Positions 40,746 to 48,844 of a stretch of DNA of 64,000 nt are shown piece after piece. The notes under the pieces are model-generated. The model saw only the letters and a list, made by a program, of their open reading frames with translations, was not told where the DNA came from and ran no database searches. Position numbers and translations under genes: made by a program. The DNA comes from Leisingera sp. ANG59 (GTDB taxonomy: Bacteria > Pseudomonadota > Alphaproteobacteria > Rhodobacterales > Rhodobacteraceae). Each line of letters begins with the position of its first letter. Position 1 is the stretch's first letter. The stretch spans positions 62,001 through 126,000 of the forward strand of contig NZ_WLCM01000011.1 of the NCBI RefSeq assembly GCF_013317235.1, in the 5' to 3' direction.

Positions 40746-41387
40746 TCAGGCGATCTCAGTCACGATGGTTTCACGGGACTTGCGGATCTTTTTCATCGGC
40801 AGCAGCCAGTCGCCGTCCTCCTGGCGGTAGCCAAGCGGCAGCAGGAGGACCGAGCGCAGGCCCTTCTCGCGAAGCTCTAGGATTTCGTCGATTTTCTCCG
40901 GCGTGAAACCTTCCATCGGGGTGCTGTCCACCTCCAGCTCCGCCGCGGCGGCCAGGGCAAAGCCCAGTGCGATATAGGCCTGGCGGGCGGCGTGGTCGTG
41001 GTTGGTGCGCTCCTCGCGCGGCAGGTAGCTGGCCTTGAGATTATCGTAATACTGCTTCAGCATCGGGATCTCGCCGCGCTCCTCAGTCATCTGGCGGGTC
41101 ACCGCGTCGATGCGGTCTTCGGAGTAGTTGTCCCAGGCGGCAAAGACGATGAGATGCGAGCCGTCGGTGATCTGGGCCTGGTCCCAGGCGTGCGGGCGGA
41201 TCTGCGCGCGGATTTTCGGGCTGGTGATCACGAAGACCTCAAACGGCTGGGTGCCGGAGGAGGTCGGCGCCATGCGGATTGCCTCGATAATCTGGTCGAC
41301 CTTTTCCTGCGGGACCGCCCTGGAGGGGTCCATTTTCTTGGTGGCGTAGCGCCAGTTCAGCTTCTCGATCAGGGAGCTCTTGCTCAT
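40746..41387 (-). CDS. Nitroreductase-family FMN oxidoreductase
   Basis: 213-residue NfsB-like enzyme. RYATKKMDPS near the start, IRMAPTSSGTQPFEVFVI for FMN binding, and a C-terminal LLLPLGYRQEDGDWL. It should reduce nitro-, quinone- or flavin substrates with NAD(P)H. ATG 41387 has a GGACC-type box. Divergent from an HxlR regulator, a common arrangement for electrophile-inducible nitroreductases. Confidence 0.9.
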   Translation of the reverse strand: MSKSSLIEKLNWRYATKKMDPSRAVPQEKVDQIIEAIRMAPTSSGTQPFEVFVITSPKIRAQIRPHAWDQAQITDGSHLIVFAAWDNYSEDRIDAVTRQMTEERGEIPMLKQYYDNLKASYLPREERTNHDHAARQAYIALGFALAAAAELEVDSTPMEGFTPEKIDEILELREKGLRSVLLLPLGYRQEDGDWLLPMKKIRKSRETIVTEIA

Positions 41388-41431
41388 GTGCCCGGTCCTT
41401 TCGCGGCATTGTGTGATGGGTGGTATAAATT

Positions 41432-41497
41432 TGTAACCGGCTATATAAGAGGTACCAAAAAGGGCACAAGAAGGCACATTTCTGAGCCCCGGTTACA
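41432..41497. promoter_or_regulatory. Long-spaced 9-bp inverted repeat in nitroreductase-hxlR intergenic region
   Basis: TGTAACCGG (41432-41440) and CCGGTTACA (41489-41497) are exact inverted copies 48 nt apart, flanking the likely promoters of both divergent genes. Candidate paired HxlR operators. Confidence 0.45.
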
Positions 41498-41511
41498 CGG
41501 AAGGAACCACC

Positions 41512-41889
41512 ATGGCAGAGGCGCAATGCCCGGAATGCGGGCGCATCAATGAGGTGCTGTCGCGGGTCGGCGACCGCTGGAGCGTGCTGATCGTGATCTC
41601 ATTGGCGCAATACGGCGTGCTGCGGTTCAATGAGCTGAAGCGGCATCTGGGGATTTCCCAGCGGATGCTGAGCCTTACCCTGCGCGAGCTGGAGCGCGAC
41701 GGGCTGGTGAGCCGCACCTATCACCCGAGAATCCCGCCCAAGGTGGAATACGCGCTGACGCCGCTGGGGGAATCGTTCCGCGAACCGGTCAAGGCGCTGG
41801 GGCTGTGGGCGCTGGAGCATCTGCCGGTGATTGATGCGGCGCGGGCGGAATATGATGCCGCCGCGGAGGCGGAGAAGAAGACCGCCTGA
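41512..41889 (+). CDS. HxlR-family transcriptional regulator
   Basis: 125-residue winged-helix regulator. CPECGRINEVLSRVGDRWSV contains the N-terminal redox/electrophile-sensing Cys positions of HxlR proteins; RFNELKRHLGISQRMLSLTL and LERDGLVSRTYHP form the helix-turn-helix and wing. Likely controls the divergent nitroreductase. Confidence 0.92.
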   Translation: MAEAQCPECGRINEVLSRVGDRWSVLIVISLAQYGVLRFNELKRHLGISQRMLSLTLRELERDGLVSRTYHPRIPPKVEYALTPLGESFREPVKALGLWALEHLPVIDAARAEYDAAAEAEKKTA

Positions 41890-41907: not shown

Positions 41908-42177
41908 CTAGTCCCGGAACGCCCAGACGCGCGCGTCCCGTTTCAGCATCGCCTGTTCAGCGGCATCCAGCCGGGCGGCCGCGGCAGCGGGGTCGCGGCT
42001 GCCGCCCGCCCTGGTCCAGATCCTGAGCGCCGAGGCCGGGCTCCAGGGCAGGCAGGCGGAGGCCAGCCACTGCCGCAGCCCCGGCGGCAGCGCGTCATAG
42101 GCCTGCATCGGGTCCCCTGCCCTGCGCCGCCGTTTCAGGCGGGAGTTCAGGTTGCGGCGCGCCCGACGGTCAGCCAT
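41908..42177 (-). CDS. DUF6525-like small basic protein
   Basis: 89 residues, Arg-rich N terminus ([20 protein letters not shown]) then [20 protein letters not shown] and a helical C terminus. I recognise it as a Rhodobacteraceae family of unknown function (DUF6525). ATG 42177 overlaps the stop of the zinc GTPase (8 nt), so it is coupled to it. Confidence 0.75.
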
Positions 42178-43372
42178 TGCGGCGCCAGCTCGGGAAGGGG
42201 TCCTCCAGGGAGGCCCAGGCCGGATCGAATCCATTTGCCGTTTCCGGCATCAGGCAGGCATCAAGGCGGGCGGTGGTGGCTTCCTTGTCGAGACCTGCAC
42301 CGATGAAGACCAGTTCCTGGCGCCGGTCGCCCCAGGTCTCGTCCCAGTTCTGCAGGAATTCGCGCCGGGCCTCGGGGTGCGTGGGCCAGCGTTCCGTTGG
42401 CACCGCCGCCCACCACAGGCCCAGCGGGCGGACCGAGGAGATGGCGCCGGCCAGCGAGAATTCAGCGGCCCATTCCGGGCGGGTGGCCAGCCAGAAATGG
42501 CCCTTGGCGCGGATCACGCCGGGCAGGTCGCCATTCAGCAACGCGTGGATTTTGGCAGGGTCAAAGGGGCGTTTGGCCCGATAGACGAAGGAGGAAATAC
42601 CGTATTCCTCGGTTTCCGGCACGTGGTGCTCGAAGCCGTAGAGCTCCTTGGCCCAGAGCGGATGTTCGTGCGCACGGTCGAAATCGAAGCGGCCGGTGTC
42701 GAAGATGCGGTCTCCGTCAACTTCGGAAAAGTCGGTCTGTATCACCTCGGCATCCGGGTTCAGCGCCTTGATCACCAGCATCGCTGCTTCGGTCTGGGCC
42801 GGGCCGGCCTCAGTCACCTTGTTCAGAATGATAACGTTGGAAAATTCGATCTGATCGGTCAGCAGATTGACCAGGGTGCGGTCGTCCTCCTCACCCAGGC
42901 TTTCGCCGCGGTCGCTGAGGAAATCATGGCTGGAGAAATCCCGTAGCAGGTTCACGGCATCGACCACGGTCACCATGGTGTCGAGGCGGGCAACGTCCGA
43001 AAGGCTCTGTCCTTCGGCATCGCGGAAATCGAAGGTCGCGGCCACCGGCAGCGGCTCGGCAATGCCGGTGCTTTCGATCAGCAGGTAATCGAACCGCCCT
43101 TCACCGGCGAGGCGGCGCACCTCCTGCAGCAGGTCGTCGCGCAGGGTGCAGCAGATGCAGCCGTTGGTCATCTCCACCAGCTTCTCGTCCTGCCGCGACA
43201 GCTCCGTTCCGCCGCGCACCAGGCCGGCGTCGATGTTCACTTCGCTCATATCGTTGACGATCACCGCAACCCGGCGGCCCGCGCGGTTGTTCAGGACGTG
43301 GTTCAAAAGAGTCGTCTTGCCCACCCCTAGGAAGCCCGAGAGCACGGTTACCGGCAGCCTGCTGTCTGTCAT
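42170..43372 (-). CDS. COG0523 G3E-family GTPase, zinc metallochaperone type
   Basis: 400 residues. Walker [11 protein letters not shown] at about 13-22, the metal-binding GCICC motif (about residues 71-75), ESTGIAEP (Walker B/switch II), NKVT guanine motif, and a C-terminal CobW_C domain with a long Trp-rich tail ([15 protein letters not shown]). Zur-regulated members (ZigA, YciC, ZagA) deliver zinc to client enzymes under zinc limitation. The perfect Zur-like palindrome 15 nt upstream supports that role. Confidence 0.92.
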
Positions 43373-43473: not shown

Positions 43474-44539
43474 AGGGGCGCCCCGCCTCCCTATGTCTCG
43501 GCGGCGGAACTGGCCGGTGATGTGGGTAACGGGCCCAGCACCTATACCGACTATGATTTAGCCATCACCGAAGCGGCAGAAGCCTGGCTGGCGATCCCAA
43601 GCGGCAGCAGCAGCCCTGGGCGGCCTTTGTTTTCCTGGTCGGCCCGCATTCCCCCTCATCTGCCCCGAGGAATGGTACAACCTGTACGACCCGGCAGAGA
43701 TGGCCCTGCCGGTGGGCTATGGCGAAGGACTGCCGGACCATGAGGAGCTGCGCAACATCGCGGGTTTCTTCAACTGCGATGCTTACTTCGACGAACAGAA
43801 GATGCGCGCGGCCAAGGCCCCCTATTACGGGCTGACGTCCTTCATGGACCATTGCGCGGGCCGGGTGATCCGGGCGCTGGAGGCCAGCGGACAGCTGGAG
43901 AACACGGTGGTCCTCTATGTGTCGGATCATGGCGACGTGATGGGGGACCAGGGATTCTGGACCAAGCAGGTGATGTATGAGCAATCCGCCGGGGTGCCGA
44001 TGATCGCCGCCGGGCCGGGGATTCCGGCGGCGCAAAAGGTGGCGACCTGCACCAGCCAGACCGACATCGCCGCCACCACGCGCGAGGTTTGCGGCGTGGC
44101 GGAGGATGCGGGGCTGCCGGGTGTGTCGCTGCGCGCGATTGCCAATGCCCCCTCTGACGAGAGCCGCACCGGGTTCAGCGAATACCATGACGGCGGCTCC
44201 AGAACCGGCGCCTTCATGGTGCGCTGGGGGCGGTGGAAATATGTCCACTTCGCCGGAATGCCGCCGCAGCTGTTCGACCTGGAGGGTGATCCGCATGAGC
44301 AGGCGGACCGGGCAATGGACGGGGGGAAAGACTCGCAGATCAAAGCAGCCCTGGCGGAGGGGGAACGGCGTCGGCGGGCGATCTGCGATCCCGAAAAAGT
44401 GAACGCCCGCGCTTTTGCCGATCAGCGCCGCAGGATTGCGGAACTGGGCGGCGAGGAGGCCTGCCGCACGGCTTACGTGTTCAACCACACGCCGACGCCG
44501 GACGAGCAGGACAAGATGCGCGAGGGCTCTCCGTTGTAG
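43474..44539 (+). pseudogene. Decayed sulfatase (alkaline-phosphatase superfamily), 5'-truncated with two frameshifts
   Basis: Remnant of a sulfatase or phosphonate-monoester-hydrolase-like gene. The first piece (frame from 43474, YVSAAELAGDVGNGPSTYTD) stops matching near 43592-43599; the next piece (PWAAFVFLVGPHSP) uses another frame to about 43652; the third (LICPEEWYNLYDPAEMALP onward) is open to the stop at 44539 and includes VVLYVSDHGDVMGDQGFWTK, the family's second metal-binding site. The N-terminal third with the CxPSR formylglycine site is absent. A 279-residue open frame from 43700 could be called as a gene but would be inactive. Confidence 0.8.
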
Positions 44540-44592: not shown

Positions 44593-44985
44593 ATGACACT
44601 GGAAGAGGCAATTGCAACCCAGCCGCTATGGGTGCAGGTCTGGGTCAACATCCTGTTTCTGGGCGCCTTTGTCCTGCCGCTGGCGCTGCTGATCTGGAAG
44701 CCCAGCCGGATCGCGGGGCTGGTGACGGTGGCAGCCAGCATCTTGGCGGGCGGCGGGGTCTACTGGATCTACGGGCAGCTTGGCTATGTGCGCCTGCTCG
44801 GGCTGCCGCATATCCTTTTCTGGACACCGCTGATTTTCTGGCTGCGGCACCAGCAGGCGCGCCCGGATATGCCAGTCTGGCCGCGGCGGATCATTCTGAC
44901 GGTGTGCGCGGTAATCGTGGTCTCACTGGCATTCGATTACGCGGATGCGGTGCGCTACCTGCTCGGCGAACGGCAGCCGTTCTGA
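44593..44985 (+). CDS. Hypothetical four-helix membrane protein
   Basis: 130 residues with four predicted transmembrane helices (about 17-36, 42-62, 68-86 and 98-120). No signal peptide, Cys residues sparse, and no motif that I can tie to a known function. The IYGQLGYVRLLGLPHILFWT segment looks conserved in character. It follows the sulfatase remnant by 53 nt and converges with the reductive dehalogenase. Confidence 0.65.
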   Translation: MTLEEAIATQPLWVQVWVNILFLGAFVLPLALLIWKPSRIAGLVTVAASILAGGGVYWIYGQLGYVRLLGLPHILFWTPLIFWLRHQQARPDMPVWPRRIILTVCAVIVVSLAFDYADAVRYLLGERQPF

Positions 44986-45003: not shown

Positions 45004-48000
45004 TTAGAGATCGATTTCCAGCACCCCGTCCGGTTCCAGCGCCCGGGACTGGCAAAGAATGATCGCGCCCTCGCGCTGTTTGTTCGAAAGCACGAAGTCG
45101 CGGTGCTCGGCGTTGCCGGAGATCAGCCCGCATTTGCAGACGCCGCAAATGCCGTCAGCGCATTTCACGTCCACATGGATGCCGCTGTCCGCCAGCGCAT
45201 CTGTGGCGGTTTTCTCCGCCGGCACCAGGATCTCGCGTCCCGATTTTGCCAGCTTCAGGGTGAAGGGGTGGTTTTCGTATTCCGGCCGGTCGGGAACCGA
45301 GAAGTATTCCATATGGCGGGCTTCTTCGGGGAAGCCATTGGCTTCTGCCGCGTCCAGCACAGCCTGCATGTAGCTCTCCGGCCCGCAAGTGTAGACGTGG
45401 CTGCCTTTCTGGTAGTTCAGCACCTCTTTCAGGTCCGCACGGGAGCCTTGGTCCGAAAAATGCAGATGCACTTTTTCAACCCAAGGAACGTCATGAAGAT
45501 CCTTGAGGAACCCTGCACTTGCCTTTTTCGAACAAGAGTAGCGGAATTCGAAATCCCGGCCCAAGGCATGCAGCCGGTGGGCCATGGCGATCATCGGCGT
45601 CACCCCGATGCCGCCGCCCATCAGGTAGGATTTGGCGGCATCCTCTGCCAGCGGGAAGTGGTTGATCGGCTTGGAGATGAACACCATCCGCCCCTCTTCG
45701 AACACCCGGTGCATCAGCCTGGACCCGCCACGGCCCTCGTCCTCGCGCAGGACGGCGATCTGGTATTTCGAGCGGTCCGCCGGGTCGCCGGACAGCGAGT
45801 ACTGGCGGAAGAACTCCGGCGCGACGACCACGTCGATATGGGCACCCGCTGTTGCCGCGGGCAGCAGAGAACCGTCCGGCAGCGAGAACTCGTAAATGGT
45901 GACCGCATCGGTCATGTGCTCAACCTTTGACAAGCGCACCCGCATGACCGGCGCTGCTCCCTGATCGGCGGTATAGACATGTTCCGGCGGCAGGTCCGCC
46001 GCGCGGCGGCGCTTGTGCTCCGCTGCCGGGATCATTGCCTGATAGGCAGCGATCCCGGCCTCGCGGTCCATCGGCGCGGGCCAGGAGTAGGGCGGCGGCG
46101 CCAGCGGCGCGGGGTAGACGGCCAGGGTCTGATCCTCGAACTTCAGATCCAGGTTTTTGGACAGCTTGCGGGCGTTCACCGGATGCTGCGAGGGCGCATA
46201 GGGCCCCTCCTCCACCATCTCCAGATCCCACCACCATTTCTTGGCTAGGTTGACCTCACCGTTGCCCAGCGCGTCGTCGAGTTTTGCCAGCAGGGGCGCG
46301 CTGCCCGGCAGGTTCATCGCGGCCCAGCGGAACGGCGCCTCTGCGAACAGCCCCTCCAGATTCCAGGGACAGGTCTTCATGCAGCGCCCGCACATCGCGC
46401 CTCCAGGCACGTTGACCCGGTAAGTGGTGCATTTCTGGCTGTCGGACTTCCAGATCTCGTAGCCGTTGAACATCAGCTTCGGCCCGGCTGTGATGGCGCC
46501 GGAGGGGCATTCGCGGGCGCATTTGTTGCAGGCTTCGCAGAACCGCTGCAGGCCGAAGTCGACAGGCTTGTCATGGATCATCGGCAGATCAGTGGTGACG
46601 GCACCGGATTTCAGGCGGGGGCCGAGGAACGGGTTCAGGATCACCTCGCCGATGCGGGAAACCTCGCCGAGGCCCGAGAGCAGCAAAAGCGGCGGCTGCA
46701 GCACTTCGCCGTCCATCACCGAATGCACCCGCGCGGTATAGCCGAGGTTGCGGATCTGCTGCGCGATCACCCCGCCCAGGAGCGAGAACCGCAGATAGGC
46801 GCGCATTGACTGGGCGCAGGCGATCCAGTCGTCGCCGGAGGCGCCCTCCATCGTTTCATGGCCTTGGTCGATGATGATGCTGATGGCGTTTTCGTGGTAG
46901 GGCGCTAAGGGTTCGCCTGCCGCGTCGTGGGAGTAGTAGGCCCAGTCCGGGCAGCGTGAGATACCCACCGCGTCGCAGCCAAGGAAATAGGCCGCGGCCT
47001 TGATACTGGCAGCATTGCGGGCGGCATCGGCGGCGCTGGGGTCAACCTGCGGCGCAGCCTCGCCGTCCTGCAGCAGCACGAAGGCCGCAAGCGAAGAGCG
47101 AAAGGCAAAGGCAGAGGAGGACTTGCGGACATAGTTGCCGTTCTTCGCCGCCTCCTGCGGGCCTTTGCCAAGGTCGCCGAACAGCGCGCGCGCAAACATG
47201 TCGGCGCGTTTCGGGACCCGCGCGACGTTCACCTCGTCGATATAGGTGGTGGGGTCTGCCACCCGCTTCAGGGTTTCGAACGGATGCGGGCCGTCCATGA
47301 AGCGGCGCTTGGCGTAGGGGTCGCGGGTGGCAGCGCTCTTGGCGTGGGCGCCAAGGCCCAGCCGGTATTTGAGGCCCGGCGCTTGCCCCGGCACCAGCGG
47401 CAGATCGGCGGCCAGTTCCAGCGTGGTGGTTACCGCGGCGATGCCGAAACGGCTGCCGAGGAACGGGTTGGTAAGAACGCCGTTCTCATAGCTGGCAAGC
47501 CCCGCCTGCACCGCCAGCTTGCCCAAATGCACATCCGTCGCAGCCCCGGTGTGGGCGCGTGCCTCCCACCCCAGGAGGCGGATGTAGCTGGCCAGCGTCA
47601 CCACGGTTTCCGCCGCCCGCAGGCAAGCACGCTGGTCCTGTGCATCCGACAGCCAATCGGTGCCGTCTTCAACGGCTTCAGGGTCGCGCGGGAACTCGTA
47701 GATGTAGACCAGCGCATGTGTGTGGTGGCGGCAGTCCGCTGGCGGGTCCTGCATCGCCTCGCGCAAGGAAGCCATCACCACGTCGATGCCGGAGGCAAAA
47801 GTCTTGGTCTGCTTGCTACGCAGGGTGTCCGCCAGCGCCGCCACATCCGGGTTCACCATCGGTGCGTCCAGCCAAGTGCCGGAGGGCACCGCGCAGGCAC
47901 CGGCCAGAGAGGCGTCGCAGAAGTATCCGAAGGCCTTCAGGTGATCGGTGCGCTCCTGCGGGTCCGCAGGGATTTCGGCGCGTTCCTTTTTCACCAGCCC

Positions 48001-48201
48001 CTCGCGGGTGGCGTCCAGCATCGCTTGATACTCTCGCATTGCGTTGACGAGGGAGAGCGGCGCACCGGGGCGGCGGAAGCTGACCTGCGCCAGCGGCGGC
48101 AGTGCATCCAGTCCTTCCGGCTCGGCCTGCCGCGCCAGCGTCTCCATCGGGTACGGCCCCAGTTGCACGGGCCGGTTGCGGTAGGAAAACAGTTTGCCCA
48201 T
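45004..48201 (-). CDS. rdhA: Self-sufficient cobalamin-dependent reductive dehalogenase (BhbA/NpRdhA type) fused to flavin and ferredoxin domains
   Basis: 1065 residues. Residues 1-690 form a soluble RdhA module without Tat signal or membrane anchor; two [4Fe-4S] sites are complete: Cys555, 558, 561, 565 (CEACNKCAREC) and Cys591, 604, 607, 611. Residues about 750-960 are an NAD(P)H/FMN reductase (RQYSLSGDP, MGGGIGVTPMIAMA, YTCGPESYMQAV). Residues about 980-1065 are a plant-type [2Fe-2S] ferredoxin (Cys1014, 1019, 1022, 1050). This matches BhbA of Comamonas and NpRdhA of Nitratireductor, which remove bromine from halogenated phenolics aerobically using B12 and NADPH. Arg553 and Tyr422/423 are candidate active-site residues. 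Co-oriented 16 nt after a marR gene. Natural substrate unknown. Confidence 0.93.
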   Translation of the reverse strand: MGKLFSYRNRPVQLGPYPMETLARQAEPEGLDALPPLAQVSFRRPGAPLSLVNAMREYQAMLDATREGLVKKERAEIPADPQERTDHLKAFGYFCDASLAGACAVPSGTWLDAPMVNPDVAALADTLRSKQTKTFASGIDVVMASLREAMQDPPADCRHHTHALVYIYEFPRDPEAVEDGTDWLSDAQDQRACLRAAETVVTLASYIRLLGWEARAHTGAATDVHLGKLAVQAGLASYENGVLTNPFLGSRFGIAAVTTTLELAADLPLVPGQAPGLKYRLGLGAHAKSAATRDPYAKRRFMDGPHPFETLKRVADPTTYIDEVNVARVPKRADMFARALFGDLGKGPQEAAKNGNYVRKSSSAFAFRSSLAAFVLLQDGEAAPQVDPSAADAARNAASIKAAAYFLGCDAVGISRCPDWAYYSHDAAGEPLAPYHENAISIIIDQGHETMEGASGDDWIACAQSMRAYLRFSLLGGVIAQQIRNLGYTARVHSVMDGEVLQPPLLLLSGLGEVSRIGEVILNPFLGPRLKSGAVTTDLPMIHDKPVDFGLQRFCEACNKCARECPSGAITAGPKLMFNGYEIWKSDSQKCTTYRVNVPGGAMCGRCMKTCPWNLEGLFAEAPFRWAAMNLPGSAPLLAKLDDALGNGEVNLAKKWWWDLEMVEEGPYAPSQHPVNARKLSKNLDLKFEDQTLAVYPAPLAPPPYSWPAPMDREAGIAAYQAMIPAAEHKRRRAADLPPEHVYTADQGAAPVMRVRLSKVEHMTDAVTIYEFSLPDGSLLPAATAGAHIDVVVAPEFFRQYSLSGDPADRSKYQIAVLREDEGRGGSRLMHRVFEEGRMVFISKPINHFPLAEDAAKSYLMGGGIGVTPMIAMAHRLHALGRDFEFRYSCSKKASAGFLKDLHDVPWVEKVHLHFSDQGSRADLKEVLNYQKGSHVYTCGPESYMQAVLDAAEANGFPEEARHMEYFSVPDRPEYENHPFTLKLAKSGREILVPAEKTATDALADSGIHVDVKCADGICGVCKCGLISGNAEHRDFVLSNKQREGAIILCQSRALEPDGVLEIDL

Positions 48202-48217: not shown

Positions 48218-48670
48218 TTACAGCTTGGCGACGATGCGCGGCTCGTCCTGCAGCAGTTTGACGGCAGAGTGGCGCAACGCGGACAGTTCTGCGCCGCTCA
48301 GTTTGGCCTCGAAATACGCCGCGTTCTCCTGCGCGATGGGCAGCACCGCCTGCAGCGCCGCCTGGCCCGCGGCGGTCAGCGCCACCCGGATTGAGCGCCC
48401 GTCGCCCTCTCCGCTGCGGCGGGTGATCAGCCCGCCTGCCTCCATCTGGCGCAAGGCGCGGGAGGTGGCGGTGCGGTCGATGCCGATGAAATCCGCGATC
48501 CCGGACGGGGTCGCCAGCCCCTCCGCGCCCGCCGCCAGCAGCACGCACCAGGTGACGCGGGTCAGCCCGTATTCGGCGATGCGCTGTTCGAAGCGGCGTT
48601 CGATCACACGCGCCAGCATGGTGATCTGATAACCAAGGGATTGGTGCAGGTGGAAGCGTGTCAGGGTCAT
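48218..48670 (-). CDS. MarR-family regulator of the reductive dehalogenase
   Basis: 150-residue winged-helix regulator: LTRVTWCVLLAAGAEGLATP, TATSRALRQMEAGGLITRR, SGEGDGRSIRVALTAAGQAA (recognition helix and wing with the conserved D/G-R turn). MarR proteins often bind aromatic ligands, so it probably senses the halogenated substrate. Start ATG 48670 is preferred over 48688, which would lie within the operator-like palindrome; no clear Shine-Dalgarno sequence precedes it. First gene of a two-gene operon with rdhA. Confidence 0.88.
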   Translation of the reverse strand: MTLTRFHLHQSLGYQITMLARVIERRFEQRIAEYGLTRVTWCVLLAAGAEGLATPSGIADFIGIDRTATSRALRQMEAGGLITRRSGEGDGRSIRVALTAAGQAALQAVLPIAQENAAYFEAKLSGAELSALRHSAVKLLQDEPRIVAKL

Positions 48671-48675
48671 GATAA

Positions 48676-48688
48676 TTGACAATGTCAA
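48676..48688. promoter_or_regulatory. MarR operator candidate
   Basis: TTGACAATGTCAA is a perfect 6-1-6 palindrome ending 6 nt upstream of the marR start. It lies where an autorepressing MarR would block the marR-rdhA promoter. Confidence 0.6.
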
Positions 48689-48844
48689 CTATTTGCCCGT
48701 CAAAAGCCAGCGAATTCTGCACATGCCCTCTTGGCGGCCTTTACGGATAGGCGTAACGCGAACTGCGCCCTGCCGCGGGCGTTGCATCATTGCGGGCAGC
48801 CTGTATCCTCAAAAACAGGGCTGGATACCCGCTAGGAGAACAGC

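Follow-up and report, generated by a model that had tools for sequence, protein, structure and literature searches.

We have analysed a 64-kb window of Leisingera sp. ANG59, a bacterium of the Roseobacter group (the window is the whole stretch of DNA studied, positions 62001-126000 of contig C12 of genome G000, an assembly of 5.33 Mb in 108 contigs), and report here on the gene rdhA (45004-48201, minus strand) and on its upstream neighbour marR. Comparison of the encoded protein, RdhA, with models and known structures has confirmed that rdhA is an intact fusion, in which a B12-dependent reductive dehalogenase with two [4Fe-4S] sites is joined to a FMN, NAD(P)H and [2Fe-2S] module of the phthalate dioxygenase reductase (PDOR) type. 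We consider it highly probable that RdhA is an oxygen-tolerant, cytoplasmic and self-sufficient ortho-halophenol debrominase/deiodinase, which would be switched by MarR and would deliver its product to unlinked aromatic pathways.

The rdhA gene is one open reading frame (ORF) of 1065 aa with an ATG start and no internal stop, and its assignment draws on NCBIfam, Pfam, a PDB sequence search, a multiple alignment and Foldseek. In NCBIfam, the 'reductive dehalogenase' model TIGR02486 matches RdhA at E 2.7e-58 and 198.3 bits, above the cut-off of 160.35, and a weaker second match of 35.6 bits lies in the N-terminal half. The PDB sequence search aligned NpRdhA (4ras, 6zxu and others) to residues 3-105 and 152-734 with E about 1e-160, and 2pia, a phthalate dioxygenase reductase, to residues 753-1062 with E 3.5e-53; Pfam placed 4Fe-4S domains at 555-614 and Fer2 at 985-1054. 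The N-terminal TIGR02486 match, together with the alignment to NpRdhA across both halves, fits a vestigial duplicated cobalamin-binding domain, which distinguishes catabolic RdhAs according to PMC10463259. One result counts against the identity as a reductive dehalogenase: the Pfam model PF13486 'Dehalogenase' gave no match to RdhA up to E = 1. In a control this model also missed three of three other fusions, namely BhbA (L109), L112 and L110, at E up to 0.5, so it is insensitive to such fusions and its miss of RdhA is uninformative; in the own genome it picks up only the short reductive dehalogenase described below. A search for the motif itself found no RRx[FL] motif of the twin-arginine translocation (Tat) type in RdhA.

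The cofactor sites are conserved throughout the aligned relatives. Our alignment holds 106 rows from 108 proteins; the rdhA of L114, which is in two pieces, and the partial L091 were left out, and L030 is represented by the longer of its pieces only. The two [4Fe-4S] motifs (46369-46539, minus strand) are C555-x2-C-x2-C-x3-C565 and C591 with C604-x2-C-x3-C611, and their eight cysteines (555, 558, 561, 565, 591, 604, 607 and 611) are invariant in 106 of the 106 rows. Cys 1014, 1019, 1022 and 1050, which we assign to the [2Fe-2S] ferredoxin motif (45052-45162, minus strand), are kept in all 104 rows that have letters there. Six active-site residues of NpRdhA (F291, S422, M423, Y426, K488 and R552) are identical in 106/106 rows and correspond to F336, S465, M466, Y469, K531 and R595 of RdhA. 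The reductase part carries the flavin-type motif RQYSL at 799 and GGIG at 863. When the predicted structure was submitted to Foldseek, the top ranks went to NpRdhA chains with E values of about 1e-46 to 1e-45, among them the one in complex with 3-bromo-4-hydroxybenzoate; self-sufficient P450s came next, then PDOR. The predicted binding of cobalamin in the base-off state fits both this residue conservation and the similarity in fold. The original prediction, made from the letters of the window, had described a single-chain enzyme with this cofactor anatomy and with no Tat signal; the intact 1065-aa frame with its NpRdhA-like and 2pia-like parts, the TIGR02486 match, the conserved cysteines and the lack of the motif agree with it on each of these points.

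By its layout RdhA is a self-sufficient catabolic RdhA-PDOR, together with BhbA and JtRdhA, and NpRdhA is an unfused relative. JtRdhA of Jhaorihella thermophila, also from a marine host, has the same layout without Tat signal, with duplicated domain, two [4Fe-4S] clusters and PDOR fusion, and conserves the same six active-site residues of NpRdhA (PMC10463259). We liken it to RdhA by its published description; its identity to NpRdhA is about 39% (PMC10463259), and that of RdhA is 40%. BhbA (Comamonas sp. 7D-2, plasmid pBHB) is a full-length fusion with 50% identity to RdhA and all key residues; it differs in belonging to an outer clade and in having a different insert. NpRdhA of Nitratireductor pacificus (4ras, 6zxu, 6zy1) shares the B12 core, the vestigial domain, the two [4Fe-4S] clusters and the catalytic residues, but lacks the fused reductase and most of the insert at residues about 106-151 of RdhA. 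The original prediction had named BhbA and NpRdhA as examples of the self-sufficient type; the former stands, while the latter has no reductase part and is not self-sufficient. Its statement that very few such proteins have been characterised is out of date, since JtRdhA has been purified and assayed (PMC10463259).

Several other identities were examined and rejected. QueG is excluded by a TIGR00276 score of 24.7 bits against a cut-off of 200 and by a separate full QueG in the genome at 433 bits. A respiratory RdhA does not accord with the missing Tat motif, the fused reductase and the absence, in Pfam and NCBIfam scans, of a neighbour matching an anchor model. A pseudogene or chimera is excluded by the uninterrupted frame and by the best 80 of 256 relatives, which match at 66-94% identity; 79 of them match over at least 1054 residues and L091 over 1014, though L030 proved to be in two pieces. 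Finally, RdhA is not the published Ros_A3X954, which is of the short type.

We infer the loading of cofactors and the path of electrons as follows. NAD(P)H would reduce the FMN of the C-terminal reductase by hydride transfer, and the [2Fe-2S] ferredoxin domain and then the two [4Fe-4S] clusters would carry electrons on to base-off cobalamin. In its cob(I)alamin state this cofactor would remove the ortho bromine or iodine, with Tyr469, assisted by Lys531 and Arg595, positioning the phenolate and supplying a proton. The dehalogenated phenol may enter unlinked aromatic pathways of the host, for example by way of PobA. The natural substrate is most likely an ortho-bromo- or iodo-phenolic acid, and the physiological role would be salvage and/or detoxification of natural marine bromophenolics. 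Purified JtRdhA catalyses NADPH-dependent debromination and deiodination of ortho-halophenols, also aerobically, and the catabolic RdhAs characterised so far are all specific for ortho-halogenated phenols (PMC10463259).

The marR gene (48218-48688, minus strand) encodes a MarR-family regulator, 156 aa long when the ORF is read from a TTG, with the first ATG at 48670, and is matched by Pfam PF12802 (48.5 bits, cut-off 27) and PF01047 (37.6 bits, cut-off 24.6). It lies 16 bp upstream of rdhA on the same strand. In a set of 81 loci, consisting of the window and the best 80 of 256 relatives, a marR gene adjoins rdhA upstream on the same strand in 43, and in 41 of these 43 the two genes either overlap slightly or are separated by no more than about 31 bp. 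Among the distant loci L115-L134, searched with ten window genes as queries, MarR is near rdhA in 4 of 20, on the same strand in L116 and L117 and divergent in L128 and L134.

Before marR we have found a 17-bp palindrome, AGTTGACA-T-TGTCAATT on the minus strand (48674-48690), which stops 3 bp short of the ATG at 48670 and which we read as a putative MarR operator. It has one mismatch from the consensus AATTGACA-N-TGTCAATT, which was drawn from Leisingera sites, so that the ten Leisingera-type rows among the 43 MarR-bearing loci fit by construction. Of these 43 loci, 25 have a best site with no more than 2 mismatches, 27 one with no more than 3 and 33 one with no more than 4; without the ten Leisingera-type rows the counts are 17/33 at 3 or fewer and 23/33 at 4 or fewer; a shuffle control gave 3 or fewer in 3 of 2150 shuffled regions. 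Where that MarR is missing, the best match before rdhA has at least 5 mismatches (38 of 38 loci). The site is the single match at 3 or fewer mismatches in the 64-kb window (0.02 expected by shuffles), and the only two places with 2 or fewer in the own genome are the marR site and a stretch within a coding ORF of contig C32. Among the 17 rdhA-bearing Leisingera genomes, G405 included, 16 have a site with at most 2 mismatches before marR-rdhA, and G398 has one with 3. Extra places within 2 mismatches occur in eight Leisingera genomes (G000, G400, G406, G407, G408, G410, G411 and G397); that in G397 is a second copy beside the first, that in G410 has a single mismatch, and the stretches around those of G400, G406 and G407 (L148, L154 and L155) contain neither MarR nor RdhA. 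In G407, which retains only remnants of rdhA, a 2-mismatch site persists about 160 bp from them. The near-uniqueness of the palindrome in the own genome suggests a dedicated switch, and marR-rdhA as the only target of MarR is supported for this genome and likely for Leisingera.

The palindrome sits right at the start of marR, overlaps the ORF when this is read from TTG, and contains TTGACA, the sigma-70 -35 consensus, which would also suit a promoter element, or a conserved feature at the beginning of the marR coding region, in place of an operator. We think this improbable, as the element is symmetric, lies before the first ATG and stands at varying distance from the nominal marR start, while a sigma-70 scan around it found no sigma-70-like pair. 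Some loci have symmetric replacements of the form TTAAC...GTTAA (L036, L039, L041, L057 and L095), and others two copies (G397, L027 and L170), which also speaks for an operator. We infer that the pair would be co-transcribed, and that MarR would bind the palindrome before its own gene and switch marR-rdhA alone, acting most probably as a repressor that leaves the DNA when a halophenolic compound binds to it. Local control by MarR, as claimed in the original prediction, gains backing from the conservation of the palindrome and is in this putative form upheld. MarR-type regulators are known near this chemistry: respiratory rdh genes of Dehalococcoides are under MarR-type negative regulation (cited in PMC6299228), and BhbR2 of Pigmentiphaga is a MarR-family activator of genes for 3-bromo-4-hydroxybenzoate, which binds an AT-rich 17-bp palindrome, TTGATT-N5-AATCAA (PMC12016517). 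In contrast to both, the present system pairs marR with rdhA and has what looks like a single site.

Concerning distribution, the nearest named relatives place the window in a marine-type alphaproteobacterium, as originally predicted: the closest named loci among the best 80 of 256 are Leisingera (L022 and L024-L030) and a Rhodobacteraceae metagenome-assembled genome (L023), at 88-94% identity. In these nine Leisingera-type loci marR is always beside rdhA (9/9), and the order nitroreductase, HxlR, ZigA-like gene, sulfatase, small gene, rdhA and marR is complete in six (L022, L023, L025, L028, L029 and L030). A near-full-length rdhA (at least 900 of 1065 residues) is present in at least 145 of 394 family genomes, a sample with about one genome for each genus, and 149 of the 394 have TIGR02486 above the cut-off when fused and short types are pooled; the gene is widespread and not exceptional. 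Of 21 Leisingera genomes, 16 have rdhA in one full-length frame and G405 has it in two pieces. Broken copies are also found elsewhere, in two pieces in Yoonia SS1-5 (L114) and with a TGA inside in G269, and together with the decayed copies in G407 and G409 and the divided one in G405 they make it seem that the trait has been lost repeatedly. A quick tree of the dehalogenase part, made from 47 hand-picked rows of the 108 proteins and rooted on NpRdhA by choice, places RdhA in a Leisingera clade within the roseobacter-type fusions. The outermost group among the fusions consists of BhbA and the protein of Nitratireductor OM-1. In this tree, which covers the phylogeny against BhbA and NpRdhA proposed with the original prediction, the branch of NpRdhA is long and the order of several inner forks is uncertain. 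The Leisingera clade stands apart from the lineage of Roseobacter MED193, Zongyanglinia and Ruegeria TM1040 (66-68% identity), and this split suggests old paralogy or transfer.

All eight flanking genes (40.7-54.2 kb) were scanned with Pfam or NCBIfam and none is a recognisable halophenol-catabolic gene, in accordance with the original prediction. A 130-aa gene at 44593-44985 has only a weak EBP match (E 0.099). At 42170-43372 (minus strand) lies a gene for a ZigA-like zinc metallochaperone GTPase, which at 595 bits just misses the cut-off of 600, and at 40746-41889 a nitroreductase-HxlR pair; most of the nine Leisingera-type loci also have these close to rdhA. The sulfatase ORF (choline-sulfatase-like; 43700-44539, plus strand) is without the N-terminal part present in the L022 copy and looks like a remnant. 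No conserved catabolic gene stands beside marR-rdhA in the 81-locus set, and 17 neighbour proteins of plasmid relatives, used as queries, gave no match within 700 bp of rdhA in these loci; farther off, DctM (two queries, same places) was found in 2 loci, aldehyde dehydrogenase in 1 and LysR in 5. The other frequent neighbours look like ordinary chromosomal synteny.

The more distant relatives have other neighbours. The BhbA locus (L109), part of a bromoxynil cluster on a conjugative IncP plasmid (PMC10463259), includes ligA, another extradiol dioxygenase gene and one for a transporter protein, and no MarR is among the genes listed near BhbA in an incomplete gene table. The Nitratireductor OM-1 fusion (L112) is near pobA and a lig-type extradiol dioxygenase gene, and plasmids of Aminobacter SS-2016 (L113) and Yoonia SS1-5 (L114) have TRAP transporters beside rdhA with MarR nearby. 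These pobA, lig and TRAP genes suggest that the wider class acts on aromatic acids. PobA (676 bits), two HmgA (639 and 630 bits) and CobN are encoded in the own genome, all on contigs other than that of rdhA, and the host could thus use the dehalogenated product and make B12, with CobN being the one gene of that pathway searched. The two homogentisate dioxygenase genes, on contigs C37 and C19, are each within a few kb of a weak match to a monooxygenase of PobA type.

Besides rdhA, this genome has a gene for another reductive dehalogenase, a short one of 412 aa, on contig C43 (L001:1120-2358, minus strand), between a LysR-type gene and a pirin gene. The short protein scores 171.7 bits with TIGR02486 and 24.4 bits with PF13486 (cut-off 24.3), and its cluster motifs are CNICSKCADACP and CAICMRVCP, which are close to those reported for Ros_A3X954 of Roseobacter sp. 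MED193, an enzyme converting 2,6-dibromophenol to 2-bromophenol (PMC13101508). Ros_A3X954 is a marine roseobacter reductive debrominase without Tat signal (PMC13101508), as RdhA is predicted to be; it is short, unfused and of other cluster motifs, and its counterpart here is the 412-aa gene and not rdhA. This organism thus seems to carry two reductive dehalogenases that differ in layout.

In judging whether RdhA is the MarR-switched debrominase/deiodinase proposed above, several observations have to be set on the other side. Such a MarR was not found next to rdhA in 38 of the 81 loci, and 10 of the 43 MarR-bearing loci are without a site within 4 mismatches; of these ten, L036, L095 and partly L031 resemble symmetric variants and others do not, and for L043, L069 and L091, with 7-9 mismatches, the examined stretch may be misplaced. 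In the lineage of the window no catabolic gene is linked to rdhA. Use of the gene is not constant within the genus, as judged from its absence or decay in 4 of the 21 Leisingera genomes (decayed pieces only in G407 and G409, none in G406, at most a 41-residue scrap in G400) and its division in one. Only one fusion has been studied in detail, so that the substrate scope of fusions is unclear (PMC10463259). Lastly, the structure model of RdhA is moderate, with a mean pLDDT of 71.9, and is poor exactly at the Fe-S region; the structure modelling proposed with the original prediction recovered the fold of the NpRdhA chains, and no pocket details are readable from it.

RdhA may also be a true self-sufficient dehalogenase whose substrate is not a bromophenolic acid but an iodinated tyrosine-type compound, 2,6-dibromophenol or a chlorinated phenol. 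JtRdhA turns over 3,5-diiodo-4-hydroxybenzoate, 2-iodophenol and 2,4,6-triiodophenol at 66-84% of its best rate, the specificity of characterised catabolic RdhAs is for ortho-halogenated phenols generally (PMC10463259), and no linked pathway fixes the substrate here. The chlorinated compounds tested with JtRdhA were not turned over and act as inhibitors (PMC10463259), and the short reductive dehalogenase of this genome, being of the kind acting on 2,6-dibromophenol (PMC13101508), could cover simple bromophenols; on balance we regard such a substrate as possible but rather unlikely. We give very little credence to the view that RdhA is a class III B12-dependent reductase which no longer dehalogenates in vivo and performs another reduction, as in epoxyqueuosine reductase. 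Class III does include QueG (PMC10463259), rdhA has no halogen-specific neighbour and PF13486 misses the protein, though it misses BhbA too; the low TIGR00276 score, the separate QueG of the genome and the six active-site residues kept in every row argue against this view.

The RdhA-PDOR class and its chemistry have already been published (PMC10463259), and no passage on the control of the JtRdhA gene was found in the available text of that paper. We found no published report of the palindrome before marR-rdhA in a search confined to the best-ranked, mostly non-subscription papers, and it seems to be an unreported regulatory detail. Tentatively, and with somewhat more doubt than conviction, we propose that marR-rdhA may form a portable two-gene 'bromophenolic switch' of the marine Roseobacter group, in which a MarR sensing one class of natural bromo- or iodo-phenolics and acting on its own operon only is combined with a self-powered B12 debrominase independent of partner proteins and of any linked pathway, while the short reductive dehalogenase would serve for simpler halophenols. 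Together with its putative operator, MarR offers a handle on the substrate, because the releasing ligand should be the substrate or resemble it. Organobromines are plentiful in the sea, and the usual picture of a reductive dehalogenase is that of an anaerobic, membrane-bound respiratory enzyme. The presence of the fused cytoplasmic RdhA in so many family genomes points to aerobic reductive debromination as a widespread trait within a major marine group, and, if the portable switch is real, common aerobic marine heterotrophs would be active agents of organobromine turnover.

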